DNA from: Planctomycetota bacterium
GTDB lineage: Bacteria; Planctomycetota; Phycisphaerae; Phycisphaerales; Phycisphaeraceae
Length of the DNA: 64,000 nucleotides
Direction: 5' to 3'
NCBI GenBank assembly: GCA_016350165.1
Contig: CP066225.1
Span: forward strand, 434,001 to 498,000
Position 1 is the first letter of the stretch, and each line of letters opens with the position of its first letter. This document shows positions 1,629 through 53,021 of the stretch, in pieces. Below the pieces are notes generated by a model, which ran no database searches, was not told the DNA's origin, and saw nothing but the letters and a program-made list of their open reading frames with translations. Position numbers and translations under genes: made by a program.

Positions 1629-3125
1629 GTGGGAATGAACTTCTTCGAAATCACAGCCATTCTGATCAGCCTGGTCGCGGTCCTCGCCTACATCAACGCC
1701 AAAATTCTCAAACTCCCCGCCACCATCGGGCTCATGCTCCTCGCTCTGCTCTTCTCGCTCGGCCTCTTCGCCTACGAAAAGCTCGGCCCCGCAGGTCACG
1801 ACCTCGAACTTTGGATCAGCAACCTTCTGGGCCAAATCGATTTCAATAAAACCCTCTTGCAAGGCATGCTCGGGTACTTGCTCTTCGCAGGCGCACTTCA
1901 CGTGAACCTCAACGACCTCAAACAGCAACGCTGGGTCATTGCTCTACTCGCAACCATCGGCGTCCTCACGACTACCGCCATCGTTGGCACCGTCATTTAC
2001 TACATCACCCCCCTGCTCGGCCTTGAAATTAAATTCATCTACTGCCTGCTCTTTGGGTCCCTCATCGCCCCCACCGACCCCATCGCAGTCCTCGCAATCC
2101 TCAAATCACTTGGCGCCCCTAAAACTCTTGAAACCAAAATCACCGGCGAATCTCTCTTCAACGACGGCGTTGGCGTCGTCGTCTTCCTCGCAATCCTCGG
2201 CGTGGCTGGCTTGTCGGCTCATGGTCCAAAACCAAACTCACATCTCACTGAGCAAGAAAAAGCACACGTCACACAATTACGCGAAATCAAAATCAGCGGC
2301 ATTCCACCTACAACTTTCATAACCAGTGCTGATGGAACCATGAAACCACTGATTGATGATCATGCCCAAACCCAACAAGAAGCAAACGAGCAAGATGCAT
2401 CGCATGGTGATGTTGATGCAACGGGCGTCGCGATGCTGTTTCTCAAAGAAACCGGCGGGGGTGCATTGTTTGGCTTGTTATTAGGACTGGTCGGTTACTG
2501 GATGATGCGCAGCCTTGATGAATACAAAACCGAAATTCTCATTTCACTCGCAATGGTGACGGGTGGTTACGCATTGTGTACGGCACTGCATATCAGCGGT
2601 CCGATTGCGATGGTGGTGGCGGGGTTGTTTATCGGGAATCATGGTCGTGCGTTTGCGATGAGTGATACGACGCGGGCAAATTTGGATTTATTCTGGGAAT
2701 TGGTGGATGAAATTCTGAATGCGGTACTGTTTGTTTTGATCGGCGTTGAAGTGCTGATCGTGAAACTGACAGGTGAATACGTACTGATTGGTTTGATCGC
2801 GATCCCGGTTGTTTTGCTTGCACGATTTATCAGTGTGGGCGGCACGGTGAAGGTTGTGAAATGGGTCAGAAAACGTGCATTTACAAGTCATGCGGTCAAG
2901 GTCATGACATGGGCAGGTTTACGTGGCGGCATCTCGGTTGCGCTGGCATTGTCTTTGCAGAATATGTTGCGCGAAACGGGTGTTGCAAGCGATGCGACTG
3001 CGGGTGATGTGATCGTCACGATGACGTATGTCGTGGTCGTGTTCTCGATTCTCGTGCAAGGTTTGACGGTTGGCAGGATGATGAAACGGCTTGGATTGAG
3101 CGGGGAAGTGAGTACGGGTCATTGA
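1629..3125 (+). CDS. Na+/H+ antiporter, CPA1 (NhaP-like) family
   Basis: This is a polytopic inner-membrane cation/proton exchanger of 498 residues with about 12 hydrophobic segments. Family hallmarks are visible: APTDPIAVLA near residue 147 and GESLFNDGVGVVVF near residue 172, which contain the ion-binding acidic residues of CPA1 exchangers, then a conserved WAGLRGGISVALALSL near residue 430. A hydrophilic insert at about residues 199-275 separates the two membrane halves and is unusual. The start is taken as GTG 1629 because AGGAG (1618-1622) is 6 nt upstream; ATG 1635 is the alternative. Base composition flips within the gene: the first half is C-rich and the second half is G-rich on the same strand. 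The ion (Na+ or K+) cannot be read from sequence. Confidence 0.9.
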   Translation: MGMNFFEITAILISLVAVLAYINAKILKLPATIGLMLLALLFSLGLFAYEKLGPAGHDLELWISNLLGQIDFNKTLLQGMLGYLLFAGALHVNLNDLKQQRWVIALLATIGVLTTTAIVGTVIYYITPLLGLEIKFIYCLLFGSLIAPTDPIAVLAILKSLGAPKTLETKITGESLFNDGVGVVVFLAILGVAGLSAHGPKPNSHLTEQEKAHVTQLREIKISGIPPTTFITSADGTMKPLIDDHAQTQQEANEQDASHGDVDATGVAMLFLKETGGGALFGLLLGLVGYWMMRSLDEYKTEILISLAMVTGGYALCTALHISGPIAMVVAGLFIGNHGRAFAMSDTTRANLDLFWELVDEILNAVLFVLIGVEVLIVKLTGEYVLIGLIAIPVVLLARFISVGGTVKVVKWVRKRAFTSHAVKVMTWAGLRGGISVALALSLQNMLRETGVASDATAGDVIVTMTYVVVVFSILVQGLTVGRMMKRLGLSGEVSTGH

Positions 3126-3455
3126 TGCGGATGCGCGCACAAACGCGCGTTTGAAAATGTGGTATGGGGCTGCATTTTTGGATTAAATTTTGAGCGTTTT
3201 TGTGAAGTTTTTGATCGATATCGTCAACTTAAATTTTGGCGTGTGGGTTTTGAGGGTGTAAGTGGGGTTGTGTGATTTTAGAAATGCGCTTTTGTGCGCA
3301 CGTTTTGTTTTGATTTTGGTTTTCGGGTCGAAAAAGTCGTCAGAAACTGGTTGGTTTTGAACTGAAATGGCGTGGTTTTGGTCAGAAATGGACAGAAATT
3401 GTTAGAAAATGATTGGTATTAGGCGATAATTTTGCTTTTATGCGCACGTTATGAT
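3126..3455. repeat. Dispersed intergenic repeat, GCGCACAAA / CATTTCT family, copy 1
   Basis: The first half of this 596-bp convergent gap has no credible gene. It contains GCGCG-CACAAA-CGCGC (3133-3148), a small hairpin just after the antiporter stop, then CGCTTTTGTGCGCA near 3288, and GCTTTTATGCGCACG near 3432. Between these lies a run at about 3345-3418 whose reverse complement is a degenerate 10-11-bp repeat of the form CCATTTCTGA. The same combination occurs at 38.7-39.1 kb and 52.06-52.26 kb. Confidence 0.55.
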
Positions 3456-3546
3456 CGGCTGATCTCCATCTTAGAGTGTCAGCTACTGTGGTGGCAGTAG
3501 GTTTGGGTAATGGGGATAATGGGAAGGGGTGGAGGTGTGGGGAAAT

Positions 3547-3593
3547 GAGAGTTTCCGGCGATCTTGGATCGCCGGCTATTGGCGTTGCAGAAA
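3547..3593 (+). repeat. REP-like palindromic repeat, type 1, copy A
   Basis: A perfect 9-bp inverted repeat CCGGCGATC (3555-3563), TTG, GATCGCCGG (3567-3575) sits in a longer conserved context: GAGAGTTT before it and CTATTGGCGTTGCAGAAA after it. Related copies are at 6751-6796 and, inverted, at 36281-36316. It lies downstream of convergent genes, as REP elements often do. Confidence 0.7.
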
Positions 3594-3640: not shown

Positions 3641-3678
3641 GGGGTGAGCGCGCCGATCGAGGATCGGCGGCTACTTGA
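3641..3678 (+). repeat. REP-like palindromic repeat, type 2, copy B
   Basis: CGCCGATC (3651-3658), GAG, GATCGGCG (3662-3669) form a perfect 8-bp inverted repeat. It is preceded by GAGGGGTGAG and followed by GCTACTTG. It is nearly identical to 6905-6950 and, inverted, to 36346-36376. It lies about 95 bp after a type 1 copy in the same orientation. Confidence 0.7.
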
Positions 3679-3721: not shown

Positions 3722-4561
3722 TTAGGATTGGCGGAATTGGGTGGGAGTGCAGTGCTGGAAAGCGCGGAAGGTGCGGGCGAAGTATTGGGTACTTTCAAAG
3801 CCTGTCTCGAATGTGATTTGGGTGATAGATTTGTTTGTGGTTTCGAGGAGATGGCATGCACGTTCGATGCGGAGGCGGTTGATGAATTGAATGGGTGAGT
3901 CGCCGGTGTGGTGCTTGACGATGTCGGCGAAGCGTGAGCGGCCTAGGTTGCAGGATTCGGCGAGTTCGGTGAGGGAGACGGGTTGTGCGGGGTCTTGTTG
4001 AAGTTGATCGAGGAGTTTGATGACGCGGAGGGTGGATTTATCTTTTGCGGGTTTGGAATGATCACGGCCTTGGGAAATGGCTTGGGCGACGTCGAGGAGG
4101 AGAAGTGGGAGAAGGAGGTCTATGCGCGTATTAGAGTCTTGGGTTGGGTTGTTGTGCCAATGTATGATGCGGTGAAGTGCGGTGGTGATGTGGGGTGTGG
4201 AGGGGACGCAACGGGTTGTTGAAGTGAGGAGCGTTTTGGTGATGTTTTGCCAATGGTTTTGAGGGAGGTTGAGGGAACGAGGTTTGCGGAGTTGGTTTAC
4301 TTTTTTGCCTAGGGGGATATCGATCCAATCGATTTCGAGTCCGGGTTCTCGTGTGGTGAGACCGCCATGCTCTTCCCATGGGAGAGTGAAGAAGAGATCG
4401 CCGGCTTGTACTTCGTAGATGCGGTTTTCGACTTGCCAACGTGTGGAGCCTTTGCGGATGGTAACGAGTTCGAGGCCTTGGTTGTAGTGGGGGCGAAGGA
4501 TGAGTGTGGTTTTGTTTGCAAGCACGGAATCACAGGCGTGGATGGCGGGGTGCATGTGCAC
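3722..4561 (-). CDS. AraC-family transcriptional regulator
   Basis: A cytoplasmic DNA-binding regulator of about 279 residues. The N-terminal 100 residues look like a cupin sensing domain (RPHYNQGLELVTIRKG, then a DLFFTLPWEEHG stretch). The C-terminal 100 residues carry the two helix-turn-helix motifs of the family: VSLTELAESCNLGRSRFADIVKHHTG, then the second HTH with ITFETGFESTQYFARTFRAFQHCTP. The start is GTG 4561 or ATG 4555; neither has a clear Shine-Dalgarno. It is divergent from two fatty acid desaturase genes with an 85-bp gap, so it probably controls them. The inducer is unknown. The whole three-gene module is bracketed by REP-like repeat pairs. Confidence 0.88.
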   Translation of the reverse strand: MHMHPAIHACDSVLANKTTLILRPHYNQGLELVTIRKGSTRWQVENRIYEVQAGDLFFTLPWEEHGGLTTREPGLEIDWIDIPLGKKVNQLRKPRSLNLPQNHWQNITKTLLTSTTRCVPSTPHITTALHRIIHWHNNPTQDSNTRIDLLLPLLLLDVAQAISQGRDHSKPAKDKSTLRVIKLLDQLQQDPAQPVSLTELAESCNLGRSRFADIVKHHTGDSPIQFINRLRIERACHLLETTNKSITQITFETGFESTQYFARTFRAFQHCTPTQFRQS

Positions 4562-38509: not shown

Positions 38510-39180
38510 TATATGCAACACAACTTCCCTCCTTCCAACCAACGACACACTCAAGTGAAACAACACCACTCTCACCTCCACCCACAACCAACGATACGCT
38601 TTAGTGCCACAACCAACTCCCTCACCCTTCCACCCCATCATAAACCAAATCTATCGCTCACAACCTCAATGGCCGGTCCGGCCTCGTATAGGACCAATTC
38701 AAAGCAAACCTGCAAAACCCATACCAAACCATCCCCAACTCAAACCGCGCGCACAAAACCGCATTACACAAAAAATCGCCCCACATTTCATATCCATTTC
38801 CAAACATTCCTAACCCTTTTCTGTTCATTCCCACTTGTTTTTAGCTCATTTCTATCAATACCCATCTACGGGAAAATCACCGAAAATCAATGAACTTTCA
38901 CATTCGTGCGCATAATCACGCAAACCAATTCTCATAACTCCTTTGTTTTCCGCCAAACTTAACAATATCACTCACCGACTTGATCAAAACGCGCACAAAC
39001 AAATCCCAATACAATCAATTTCAACCCACTTCAAAAACCAACTTTCAAACAAAACGCGCGCACAAAATCGACGCCCATACCAGTATTACCCCTCTATATC
39101 ATCAATCCTCACCAAAGGTATCATGAACCAAACTGTCGCGTAGTGCACAATCGACAAAAACAACAACCCGGAATCACACC
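38510..39180. repeat. Intergenic region with dispersed GCGCACAAA / CATTTCT repeat, copy 2
   Basis: A 671-bp gap with no credible gene. GCGCGCACAAAA occurs near 38749 and 39054, GCGCACAAAC near 38990 and GTGCGCATAATCACGC near 38906. At about 38793-38858 there is a pyrimidine-rich run of CATTTCC / CATTCCTAAC / TTTCTGTTCATT / CATTTCTATC units spaced about 10-13 nt. The same ingredients make up 3.13-3.45 kb and 52.06-52.26 kb. Confidence 0.5.
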
Positions 39181-48738: not shown

Positions 48739-48779
48739 GTATTTCGTGAGTCCTAACTTTTGGTTAGAACCCAATTTAA

Positions 48780-49159
48780 TGGAGCCGGGGAGAATCGAAC
48801 TCCCGTCCCGAATAGCAGTCACCAAGACGCTTCTACACGCATAGTCGTTAATTTGATCTCGGATCAAAGGCGACCAACGACAGTCTCCTCATCACCTAAT
48901 CTCAGTGTTATTTAACCTTCAGACCCTGAAATACAGTCATCCAGCGAGTCTACTGTCTTTTGCACCATGTCTCAGCCGTAGACACTCCTTGACATGATGG
49001 GCAGCACTATTAGGCAGCCATACGTACTGGCGCGAAGCCAATACGACCAGCGATATTATCGTTGGCAATTAAGTTTTTTGTACGTGGTTTTACGAGGTTT
49101 TCGTACACCTCGACGCGCAACGCCGAGCCTTCCCTGCCCGGTCGATACCGATCGGCCCC
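48780..49159 (-). ncRNA. ssrA: tmRNA (one-piece)
   Basis: Rescues stalled ribosomes with SmpB. On the minus strand the 5' end GGGGCCG pairs with the 3' CGGCTCC as the 7-bp acceptor stem. The T arm is GACGGGAGTTCGATTC with CTCCC, and the discriminator is A; CCA is not encoded. The tag reading frame runs from the resume codon GCC (49066-49064) to TAA (49012-49010) and encodes ANDNIAGRIGFAPVRMAA, 18 residues. The start ANDN is typical; the end MAA instead of the usual LAA is less so. Length is about 380 nt. Confidence 0.97.
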
Positions 49160-51123: not shown

Positions 51124-51855
51124 TTGCGTCATAATGTTTTGTTTTATAACAACGCATCACAACAACCACCTGCCCCTTACTCACAGGACTTCTCAACCAA
51201 TGCCGATGATTGGCTCATGCCTTTCTACATCGAATGGAATGAGCAAGACCAAAACGCAACAGCGTTCGAAGGCGCATTTTCAGTCTTCGGCGCTGTCAAT
51301 ATCCACTACAACAACGGTTTCAAATCTTCTGTCGATGTTTACCTTGATACCAACTGGGCGATCAACGACGGCTTCGACTACGACTTCTCAATCATGCCAC
51401 ACAAGAATGGTGCAAAAGCTTTCGAACATGAAATCTTCCGCGTCGCTCAAACCGAGCAAGGCCTACTCATCGCCGCTGACCACAAAACCTCAAAGCACAT
51501 CAGTGCATCTGAAGTCATCGAAAAACAATTCACTAAAATCACCGAATCCGGATGGTACACATTTGAAAACATCATCCGTGAAGACAAGAACAACCTCGGT
51601 AACTACCTCGCAGATTTCAACGTCTACAAACAAAACGAAGCAACACCTTTTGCTTCATTCACCGACAACATCGCTGACACCGAATACGGCATCGGCGGTC
51701 ACCACTCAGGCTGGTTCCGCAGCGTTGAATTCTCAGACAATAGTGGCATACTTTTCGATAACGCATACCTCGAATACGCACCAATCCCCGAACCCGCATC
51801 CCTCTCAATCCTCACACTCGGTTCACTTGCATTGATCCGCAGATCAAGAAAATAA
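51124..51855 (+). CDS. PEP-CTERM sorting-domain protein, apparently lacking its signal peptide
   Basis: The 243-codon ORF ends in IPEPASLSILTLGSLALIRRSRK: a PEP motif, hydrophobic helix and basic tail, the exosortase/archaeosortase sorting signal. The body (DWLMPFYIEWNEQDQN, SVDVYLDTNWAINDGFDYDFSIM) is a beta-rich secreted domain. Such proteins need an N-terminal signal peptide, yet the ORF opens at a TTG with no ribosome site and reads straight into polar sequence (RHNVLFYNNASQQPPAPYSQDF). No signal peptide is found in the other frames upstream. It is probably a 5'-truncated remnant or has a frameshifted start. Confidence 0.6.
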   Translation: MRHNVLFYNNASQQPPAPYSQDFSTNADDWLMPFYIEWNEQDQNATAFEGAFSVFGAVNIHYNNGFKSSVDVYLDTNWAINDGFDYDFSIMPHKNGAKAFEHEIFRVAQTEQGLLIAADHKTSKHISASEVIEKQFTKITESGWYTFENIIREDKNNLGNYLADFNVYKQNEATPFASFTDNIADTEYGIGGHHSGWFRSVEFSDNSGILFDNAYLEYAPIPEPASLSILTLGSLALIRRSRK

Positions 51856-52055: not shown

Positions 52056-52262
52056 ACTTTCAAACCGCGCGCACAAACGTGCATTTCACCCATTTTTTAC
52101 TGTCAAAAACGCGCTGTTTCTTGCAATTTTTTAACCGTTTCTGACCATTCTTAAGCATTCTTTACCCGTTTTGAACGATTCTTTACTACGTGTAAACCCT
52201 TGAAAATATAAAAACGTGCGCGCAAATGCGTGCCTTACACGCGCTTTTGTGCGCATCGTCAA
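52056..52262. repeat. Dispersed GCGCACAAA / CATTTCT repeat, copy 3
   Basis: In the convergent gap before the ferritin gene. GCGCGCACAAACGTGC near 52063, then a clear phased run at 52133-52190 with units like ACCGTTTCTG, ACCATTCTTA, AGCATTCTTT, ACCCGTTTTG and AACGATTCTT (period 10-11), then GTGCGCGCAAATGCGTG and ACGCGCTTTTGTGCGCA near 52215-52256. The first and last motifs are inverted relative to each other and frame the phased run. Confidence 0.6.
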
Positions 52263-52294: not shown

Positions 52295-52828
52295 CTAATT
52301 ACCGCCATTCGTATTCAAGCCACCCCCTTGAACGCCCGGCACATTCCCCTGAGCAATCTGCTGATTCAATGTCAGGATCGCACCCTTATCCGTACCGGCA
52401 AACTTCACGATATCAAGCATGTCACGCATCGACTTCTCTTCTTCAACCTGCTCATCCAAAAACCACTGCAACGCGCTAAGTGTTGCGTAGTCTTTATATT
52501 GCGCTGCCACCTGATAAACGTGATTAATTGAAGCCGTATTGTTCTCTTCAAGCTTCAAAGCAATCTCAAACACGTCCTGAACGCCTTGAAACTCAGTCTT
52601 AGGCGATGCGATCGGCGGTAGCTCCACCTTACCATCACGGTCCAGCAAATACTGGTACAAGCGATTGGCGTGCTGCGTCTCTTCCTCACGTTGCCGCAAC
52701 ATCCAAGTCGCAAACCCATCAAGACTGATTTCCGCAAAGTATGCGGCCATTGCCATGTAGCTGTAAGCCGCTGTTAGTTCTTGGTTTATCTGCTTATTTA
52801 TTGCTTTTTCAATCTTTGTTTCGATCAT
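52295..52828 (-). CDS. Ferritin (non-haem, FtnA-like)
   Basis: Iron storage protein of 177 residues with a four-helix bundle. Ferroxidase ligands are visible: Glu in NQELTAAYSYMAMAAYF, then REEETQHA (Glu and His), ALKLEENNTAS and LDEQVEEEKSM. The C-terminal tail is Gly/Asn-rich (GVQGGGLNTNGGN), longer than in E. coli FtnA. The start is ATG 52828 (MIETKIEK): AAAGG is 8 nt upstream; an in-frame GTG at 52837 lies over that motif. It forms a 24-mer in the cytoplasm in known relatives. Confidence 0.95.
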   Translation of the reverse strand: MIETKIEKAINKQINQELTAAYSYMAMAAYFAEISLDGFATWMLRQREEETQHANRLYQYLLDRDGKVELPPIASPKTEFQGVQDVFEIALKLEENNTASINHVYQVAAQYKDYATLSALQWFLDEQVEEEKSMRDMLDIVKFAGTDKGAILTLNQQIAQGNVPGVQGGGLNTNGGN

Positions 52829-53021
52829 TGCCAACACCTTTTACATAACCCACATCACAAAAACACGATCCCACTACCTGTCTCCCAGCCCAATACCCAA
52901 CTCCTTACCTCATAATCATTTAACCAAAATGTCATTTGCTCCCAGATCGCCCTACCCCAAGTCCTCCCACACACTAATCTTATGATCCTTTTCGACGGGA
53001 TATGCTGAATTTCTTCGAGAT

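Follow-up and report, generated by a model that had tools for sequence, protein, structure and literature searches.

The strong gyrase sites, among them the Mu SGS and BIME-2, are the described systems that come closest to the element reported here. According to the part of the source used here (PMC6379681), the gyrase motif covers 130 bp with a 10.75-bp GC periodicity, its DNA is proposed to wrap around the C-terminal domains of GyrA, and BIME-2 elements serve as strong gyrase sites. Other relatives may be sought among dispersed intergenic repeats such as REP/BIME sequences, and among MITEs and small non-autonomous repeats such as STAR or the pneumococcal BOX and RUP.

We analyzed a 64,000-nt stretch of the genome of a Planctomycetota bacterium of the family Phycisphaeraceae (contig CP066225.1, positions 434,001 to 498,000, hereafter the window), and followed an element found in three of its intergenic gaps through the rest of this source genome, a sister species of the same genus and other members of the family. 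The element resembles the strong gyrase sites, as the consulted part of PMC6379681 presents them, in length (about 150 bp against 130), in its degenerate letters and in occurring as dispersed intergenic repeats. It shares with REP/BIME sequences, in the portion of PMC2817692 considered, more than 100 intergenic copies, mosaic modules and a proposed protein-binding role, and differs from them in that it has no REP-type palindrome unit, its boxes are direct and not alternating, and no linked RAYT gene was found. Like MITEs and the small repeats named above, within what the sources covered say of them, it is short, non-coding and dispersed, with similar copies in one related genus; unlike MITEs, it keeps register more than sequence and stays in place at orthologous sites, and no terminal inverted repeats with target duplications were recognised, by eye, in eight copies from that genus. 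The statement of the initial annotation that no known element type fits therefore holds in part, since the gyrase wrapping motif is alike and the dispersed intergenic lifestyle is that of BIME/REP and MITE-type repeats. We found no description of the element in the literature searched, which leaves out most subscription papers.

Three gaps of the window share boxes and an inner array

The three gaps had been noticed for sharing short words at their edges and a repetitive interior, and the observation stands: all seven matches to the box word GCGCACAAA in the window lie inside them (two, three and two), and the array between the boxes is phased at about 10.5 nt. In 100 dinucleotide shuffles of the window the box word occurred 1.02 times on average, and none of the shuffles reached seven. 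Two of the gaps (3126-3455 and 52056-52262) are indeed located between convergent genes, and the third one between genes of the same direction. W1 is flanked by the 3' ends of a Na+/H+ exchanger gene (1629-3125, plus strand) and an AraC-type regulator gene (3722-4561, minus strand), and W3 by those of a gene at 51134-51835 (plus strand) and a ferritin-like gene (52295-52837, minus strand). The features of the three elements are as follows.

3126..3455, minus strand (strand of the array): element W1, from the sequence; phase score 23.2
3437..3445, minus strand: W1 box 1, variant GCGCATAAA, from the sequence; 146 nt from box 2
3322..3431, minus strand: W1 phased A/T-tract array, a 110-nt window of the phase scan
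3291..3299, minus strand: W1 box 2, GCGCACAAA, word match
3135..3143, plus strand: W1 outer box, GCGCACAAA in reverse orientation, word match
38744..39075, plus strand: element W2, made of module I (box distance 159 nt) and, after it, module II (150 nt)
38749..38757, plus strand: W2 box 1, GCGCACAAA, word match
38866..38891, plus strand: W2 conserved motif CTACGGGAAAATCACCGAAAATCAAT, from the sequence and from family-wide conservation in the stack
38908..38916, plus strand: W2 box 2, variant GCGCATAAT, 159 nt past box 1 and 150 nt before box 3
38991..38999, plus strand: extra box GCGCACAAA within module II of W2, word match
39058..39066, plus strand: W2 box 3, GCGCACAAA, word match
52056..52262, plus strand: element W3, from the sequence; phase score 23.0
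52069..52077, plus strand: W3 box 1, GCGCACAAA, word match
52083..52170, plus strand: W3 phased A/T-tract array, extent of the nine stack slots
52186..52207, plus strand: W3 conserved motif CTACGTGTAAACCCTTGAAAAT, with TTACAGGTAAACCCCGAAAAAT at the same place in the sister species
52218..52226, plus strand: W3 box 2, variant GCGCGCAAA, 149 nt past box 1, a distance that is also 149 nt in the sister species
52246..52254, minus strand: W3 outer box, GCGCACAAA in reverse orientation, word match

W2 is absent from the list given by the phase scan (score below 19) because many of its tracts are ATTC. The two ingredients that had been proposed for the gaps did not prove to be the conserved ones. CATTTCT, taken initially as the repeat unit, occurs 18 times in the window against 13.96 expected, and 22 of 100 shuffles were as high; the recurring unit is an A/T tract, either TTTC-like or AAAAC-like, that holds a constant helical phase. 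The mini-hairpin GCGC-ACAAAN-GCGC follows box 1 in none of 38 elements from the source genome and in three of 16 from the sister species (type-I elements, defined below), and by eye it was seen at few boxes, namely the one at 3135 and the reverse-strand boxes at 3291 and 52246. Inverted repeats were lacking in the gap at 38700-39100, and each of the other two gaps showed one box-containing pair of arms. No Rfam match was found in the three gaps; elsewhere, the Rfam and tRNA/tmRNA searches gave one tRNA and one tmRNA in the window. The tmRNA gene lies at 48777-49159 (minus strand) and has, according to ARAGORN, an 18-residue tag, ANDNIAGRIGFAPVRMAA.

Boxes are spaced by a fixed distance throughout the genome

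The box GCGCACAAA occurs 323 times in the source genome, compared with 48 for the reversed-word control, and a longer form, GCGCGCACAAA, 145 times against one. Pairs of boxes on the same strand 135-165 nt apart numbered 75 against one in the control, at least two of the 75 being overlapping double counts. Regarding their location, 39 of the 46 boxes in a sample of 464 kb (the window plus 20 spread 20-kb stretches of the source genome) were intergenic, with 82% of this DNA called as coding. As support for a true element, the initial annotation had asked for tens of intergenic copies conserved in relatives, and this is what we observed, with 75 box pairs against one, nearly all intergenic, and a similar picture in the sister species. 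The boxes are direct repeats of the form G[CT]GCGCACAAA that frame about nine A/T tracts, all on one face of the helix, with a conserved motif, TACGGGTAAATCA, between the array and the second box.

A regularity that had escaped the earlier description is that the distance from one box to the next is 149-150 nt or exceeds this by about one helical turn. Among 102 pairs with start-to-start distances of 100-200 nt in the loci fetched from the source genome, 32 were at 149 nt and 20 at 150 nt, a single one fell at 151-156 nt, and seven and 12 were found at 157-159 and 160-162 nt, respectively; distances outside 135-165 nt are under-counted here and in the sister species, because most loci were picked by pattern matches in that range. 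Chance or base composition as the origin of these patterns is ruled out by the reversed-pattern controls, the shuffles and the other periods that were scanned.

A/T tracts keep a helical register while their letters vary

We defined as type I the elements with a box distance of 145-151 nt, excluding pairs that contain words of the two other fillings described below (modules II and III), pairs in which G exceeds C by more than 6, and duplicates, which left 38 elements from the source genome and 16 from the sister species. A gapless stack was made from 26 of the 28 type-I elements of exactly 149 nt, L107 and L120 being left out because each has another box inside. In this stack, AAA or TTT tracts are found at about positions 16, 26, 38, 48, 59, 69, 80, 90 and 100, with few between them.

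Measured from the left box, the register of the 38 source elements gave resultant lengths of 0.67 at 10.5 nt and 0.69 at 10.75 nt, and that of the 16 sister-species elements 0.62 and 0.63, compared with random-offset controls that averaged 0.11 and 0.15 with maxima of 0.30 and 0.36 (source and sister species, respectively); these sets were picked by their box pair, and common descent could explain part of the register. The phases of AAA and TTT in the source genome are nearly equal (6.5 and 7.0), and the GC dinucleotide, at 1.55, lies about half a turn away. When nine slots of 7 nt were considered, 274 of 342 were filled in the source genome (102 with AAA and 172 with TTT) and 112 of 144 in the sister species (55 with AAA, 56 with TTT and one with both), while equal windows midway between the slots were filled in 28 of 304 and 14 of 128 cases. 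AAA and TTT replace each other, and both are common at many slots. The letters of the array are 39% identical between copies in the source genome and 36% in the sister species, and identity is still 33-36% when the copies are offset by 10, 11 or 21 nt, compared with 24-28% for the other five offsets tried. Since the copies are so little alike, and nearly as alike once displaced by one or two turns, the main feature that the arrays share is their register.

To look at the array without reference to the boxes, we scanned the same 464 kb for phased tracts. Peaks with a score of at least 22 numbered ten at a period of 10.5 nt, three at 10, four at 11, two at 11.5 and none at 9, 9.5 or 12, and all ten at 10.5 nt were intergenic and within 150 nt of a box. 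At a cut-off of 18, 18 of 19 peaks were intergenic and 13 of 19 were near a box. The scan is unspecific at low cut-offs, with 87, 88 and 93 peaks of at least 14 at 10.5, 11 and 11.5 nt, respectively. The 13 peaks of at least 20 in this sample extrapolate to about 150 arrays per genome.

These results strongly support the suggestion that helically phased A/T tracts mark curved DNA or an array that binds protein: the register is coherent in two species, AAA and TTT are interchangeable, and box spacing is kept while many letters diverge. A static wedge model found the arrays only moderately more curved than dinucleotide shuffles, with a mean z of -1.06 in the source genome (11 of 38 above 0) and -1.42 in the sister species (five of 16 above 0). 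On one strand, the letters beside the tracts show a strong preference for C over G, which curvature alone has no need of.

Other fillings and mosaic structure

The copies of the source genome are modular, made of module I, module II and further modules upstream. Module I consists of the phased array and then TACGGGTAAATCAYYRAAAAT, between boxes. Module II, of the form CATAACTCCTTT...AAGACCATCTCAAAAACCAACTTTC..., also has its boxes 149-150 nt apart, and a third filling, module III, contains GTTAGCGCGCGGTTATCAC, with six cases in the sister species and one in the source genome. Module II is unphased, with resultants of 0.13 at 10.5 nt (19 source copies) and 0.29 (six sister-species copies), and module III is partly phased (0.39, six copies). 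Since the boxes of module II stand at the usual distance although its filling lacks the phase, the box distance does not depend on the array.

Several other repeats were seen in the neighborhood of these elements. Hairpins of the type CTACTG...CAGTAG adjoin, by eye, several phased arrays (window 3483-3500; L003, L101, L119 and L120), as if they were part of the same mosaic. A dispersed intergenic hairpin word, CCGGCGATC..GATCGCCGGCTA, and its variants are present at 3555-3578 and 3651-3673 of the window and in L014, L114, L142, L145, L161 and L164, often upstream of a phased array and followed by GCTCACCCCTCAC. The repeat AACCAACGATACGCTTTAGTGAAACAAC, often in tandem, lies upstream of the array in L014, L018, L114, L126, L130, L146 and L164.

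Positions and box distances are kept in a sister species

The genome of the sister species (G001) contains 254 matches to GCGCACAAA against 38 in the control, 79 to GCGCGCACAAA against three, and 36 box pairs against none. Among 48 pairs in the loci fetched from it, 30 had distances of 145-151 nt and four of 158-161 nt. For both window elements tested, W1 and W3, the orthologous gene of the sister species is likewise flanked, on the corresponding side, by an array and a box: W3 and its counterpart lie beside the ferritin-like gene with 149 nt each, and the counterpart of W1, beside the exchanger gene, has an array and boxes but not the W1 box pair. Besides, five element loci of the sister species align to the spread source stretches away from stretch ends. 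Boxes or an array are present in the matching short gap of the source genome for L117, L119 and L111; for L101 and L107 the element is present, but several kb of unaligned DNA lie between the flanks. A sixth locus, L112, aligns only at a stretch end and stays outside this count.

Six ortholog pairs were compared letter by letter. Their box distances were 149/149 in three cases, 148/148, 149/148 and 149/146, that is, exactly equal in four of six, with a gapless identity of 0.38-0.60 and a gapped identity of 0.54-0.65, compared with 0.46-0.50 for shuffled letters. In two more pairs (159/148 and 161/150) the difference is 11 nt, close to one turn. Most of the ortholog pairs are biased in that they come from loci picked for carrying boxes.

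Distribution in the wider family

We then turned to other genera of the family. The long box GCGCGCACAAA is enriched over its control in G006 (50 against one), G015 (22 against none), G005 (17 against two) and G021 (11 against none), as well as in G047 (ten against one), G059 (seven against one) and G018 (26 against ten). In G006, at least 23 of the 50 long boxes are no more than about 300 nt away from the end of a contig, a location typical of near-identical repeats. In 20 stretches of G006 and G015, GCGCGCACAAA mostly frames other repeats of similar appearance, and no phase peak of at least 18 was found, the highest being 14.5. GCGCAC words are spaced by 101 nt in G015 (L291, L293-L298) and by 113 nt in G006 (L280-L283, L286-L289), and CCCCTATATAGAGGG follows six of the seven G015 copies of this box repeat. 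There was no phase peak of at least 16 in 200 kb of G009, of the same family, and box pairs numbered 0-3, similar to the control, in the 49 family genomes outside the genus. The nearest named homologues of the W1 exchanger, among the matches listed, belong to the Phycisphaeraceae, with 57% identity; no box was found at the four homologue loci checked of the best 80 matches.

Phased arrays were found outside the genus in G059, a member of another genus with 59% GC, where 230 kb gave two phase peaks, both strong and both beside GCGCAC boxes. The pattern of its array, three units of AAAACGNNCN (the AAAACG array), gave 42 overlapping matches at 13 places against none in the control, with little elsewhere and no match in G021, its congener. 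Eight G059 copies align over about 208 nt, with 27 of the 28 pairs 85-99% identical and one 76%, and one copy has 20 extra nt that correspond to two repeat units. In all eight, the array is followed by [AG]TGTAAA and then by the box, much like the element of the source genome. The likeness of the eight copies indicates that the element spread by copying in that genus. By eye, no obvious target duplications were seen in them. Similar copies with defined ends, of the MITE type, are found only in G059, and those of the source genome are diverged. The G059 element of about 208 nt starts with AACCGATACTTTC, which is similar to AACCAACGATACGCTTTAGTGAAACAAC.

Gene context and alternative explanations

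Gene contexts were assigned with a purpose-made gene caller to 73 rows, 50 of type I and 23 of module II, separated by a coarse word rule. The 50 type-I rows fall in 15 convergent, 24 tandem and 11 divergent gaps; L151, L152 and L163 were counted twice, and a hand count with each locus taken once gives 15 convergent, 22 tandem (11 sense and 11 antisense) and ten divergent. Convergent gaps are only weakly enriched: they hold 15 of the 50 elements, while 22 of the 151 gaps that measure at least 150 nt are convergent (p 0.02), and the excess is not significant when longer gaps serve as the reference (p 0.15-0.30). In the tandem gaps, the C-rich strand was sense 11 times and antisense 13 times (p 0.84), with no preferred direction.

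These contexts bear on three readings that place the function in RNA or in the neighboring genes. Rho acts on C-rich, G-poor RNA with YC dinucleotides spaced by 10-11 nt, and a Rho-dependent terminator would agree with the excess of C well above G on the array strand of most copies, with the YC often found before a tract and with the unstructured RNA of the element. The even split of the C-rich strand between sense and antisense speaks against a terminator in RNA, as do the 11 of 50 elements between divergent genes, and RNA needs neither a register held over nine turns at a non-integer period nor an exchange of AAA for TTT, so we consider this explanation very unlikely. A structured non-coding RNA or REP-like hairpin element is more improbable still, and has been largely refuted already: GCGC-loop-GCGC can form at a few boxes, the core of the box, GTGCGCAC, is a palindrome and one of eight folded 150-nt elements was better than its shuffles (z -2.11), but the other seven gave z values from -0.76 to +1.75 and the GCGC hairpin is missing at all 38 first boxes of the source genome. 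The element could also be a curved regulatory region for neighboring genes, as promoter upstream activating DNA or as an array of transcription-factor sites, in line with the conserved motif after the array and with the 11 and 24 of 50 type-I elements between divergent and same-direction genes, respectively. With 15 of 50 in convergent gaps and no preferred direction relative to tandem genes (11 against 13, p 0.84), we hold this to be quite unlikely.

A further reading takes the element for a selfish, non-autonomous, MITE-like repeat, the boxes being its ends and the array a docking site for a transposase or integrase, without host function. The eight similar dispersed copies of about 208 nt in G059, the modular copies of the source genome and the at least 23 of 50 long boxes near contig ends in G006, as near-identical repeats, all agree with it, and so does a phased array (score 20.3) about 0.6 kb past a broken IS200-like gene. 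This last is a single case, L133 (G000:C1:680223-680581), with the array downstream of the broken transposase gene, which is the only Y1 match of the source genome. Against this stand the positions kept between species, with exact box spacing in four of six pairs, despite the divergence in letters, and the lack of obvious target duplications, by eye, in the eight G059 copies. Moreover, none of 16 places with a Y1-type transposase domain in four related genomes had a phased array in a stretch of about 2-3.6 kb; the highest phase score there was 16.7 and GCGCACAAA was present in two of the 16. We regard a mobile repeat of this kind as unlikely, with an appreciable chance nonetheless. A RAYT/REP system was rejected, the Y1 places of the four related genomes being unlinked to arrays (0 of 16). 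Nucleosome-positioning DNA has AAA/TTT half a turn away from GC, and the element resembles it in this tract logic and in its nearly equal length; it differs in that the boxes lie at a fixed distance and no HMf-type histone was found. The corresponding model (PF00808), which covers HMf-type histones, matched none of 51 family genomes against three of 14 control genomes, and a site wrapped by a histone of this type was discarded.

A candidate DNA-wrapping site

The explanation that we favor, with chances that we put just short of even, is that the element is a dispersed intergenic site predicted to bend or wrap DNA. The interchange of AAA and TTT, the half-turn offset of GC, the non-integer period and the tolerance to changes in letters are what would be predicted for bent or wrapped DNA under indirect, minor-groove readout, and for this reason we hold to a docking and wrapping site. 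A DNA-wrapping protein complex would dock at the boxes, acting as sequence-specific anchors, and would wrap or bend the array so that each A/T minor groove faces inward. Selection would then act on helical register, through indirect readout, more than on sequence. The role of the site may lie in chromosomal topology or architecture between transcription units, as with strong gyrase sites and BIME-2, and copies would have spread by some copying mechanism and then been retained.

DNA gyrase would be the leading candidate for the protein, an identification that we consider rather improbable, and some nucleoid protein is the alternative candidate. As the part of PMC6379681 used here describes the gyrase motif, module I, unlike module II, shares with it the alternation of A/T and GC, with a period of 10.75 nt in the motif and 10.5-10.75 nt in the element. 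The motif has an unphased center of 36 nt and two symmetric arms of 47 nt, whereas the element has nine unbroken tracts and, unlike the motif as presented in that part of the source, is framed by sequence-specific boxes, with the array followed by a conserved motif. The symmetric layout of the gyrase type is missing, since tracts at 59, 70, 80 and 91 cross the middle of the element; its unphased part (about 102-133) is off-center, next to a phased arm of about 85-90 nt plus the conserved motif. The preference for C over G on one strand, the moderate curvature in the wedge model and the unphased module II likewise speak against a simple gyrase site. Our best reading by analogy is that the element may work like a strong gyrase site or BIME-2, its membership in either class being only a candidate assignment.

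It is possible, though doubtful, that these elements form a new class of bacterial chromosomal element, a sequence-framed wrapping site of particle size (about 150 bp) in which helical register itself would be selected and which would act as a programmed, positioned wrapping particle, in a bacterium without HMf-type histones and in at least two planctomycete genera. Such a class, as doubtful in these further respects, would number roughly a hundred copies or more in each genome, with box spacing quantised by turns and with AAA and TTT interchangeable. The result for module II led us to lower slightly the chances given to the wrapping site, from even to just under, and to the novel class, and to raise slightly those of the mobile repeat.

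In bacteria, intergenic repeats are usually identified from the letters or hairpins that they share. Since the present family is recognised mainly from its register, ordinary repeat finders are expected to split or miss it. If the wrapping site is real, the family would offer a natural set of strong wrapping sites from which the rules of indirect readout could be read from evolution, such as the tolerance of each position to A or T and the one-turn changes in box spacing, and it would provide a test bed for the organisation of the planctomycete nucleoid.
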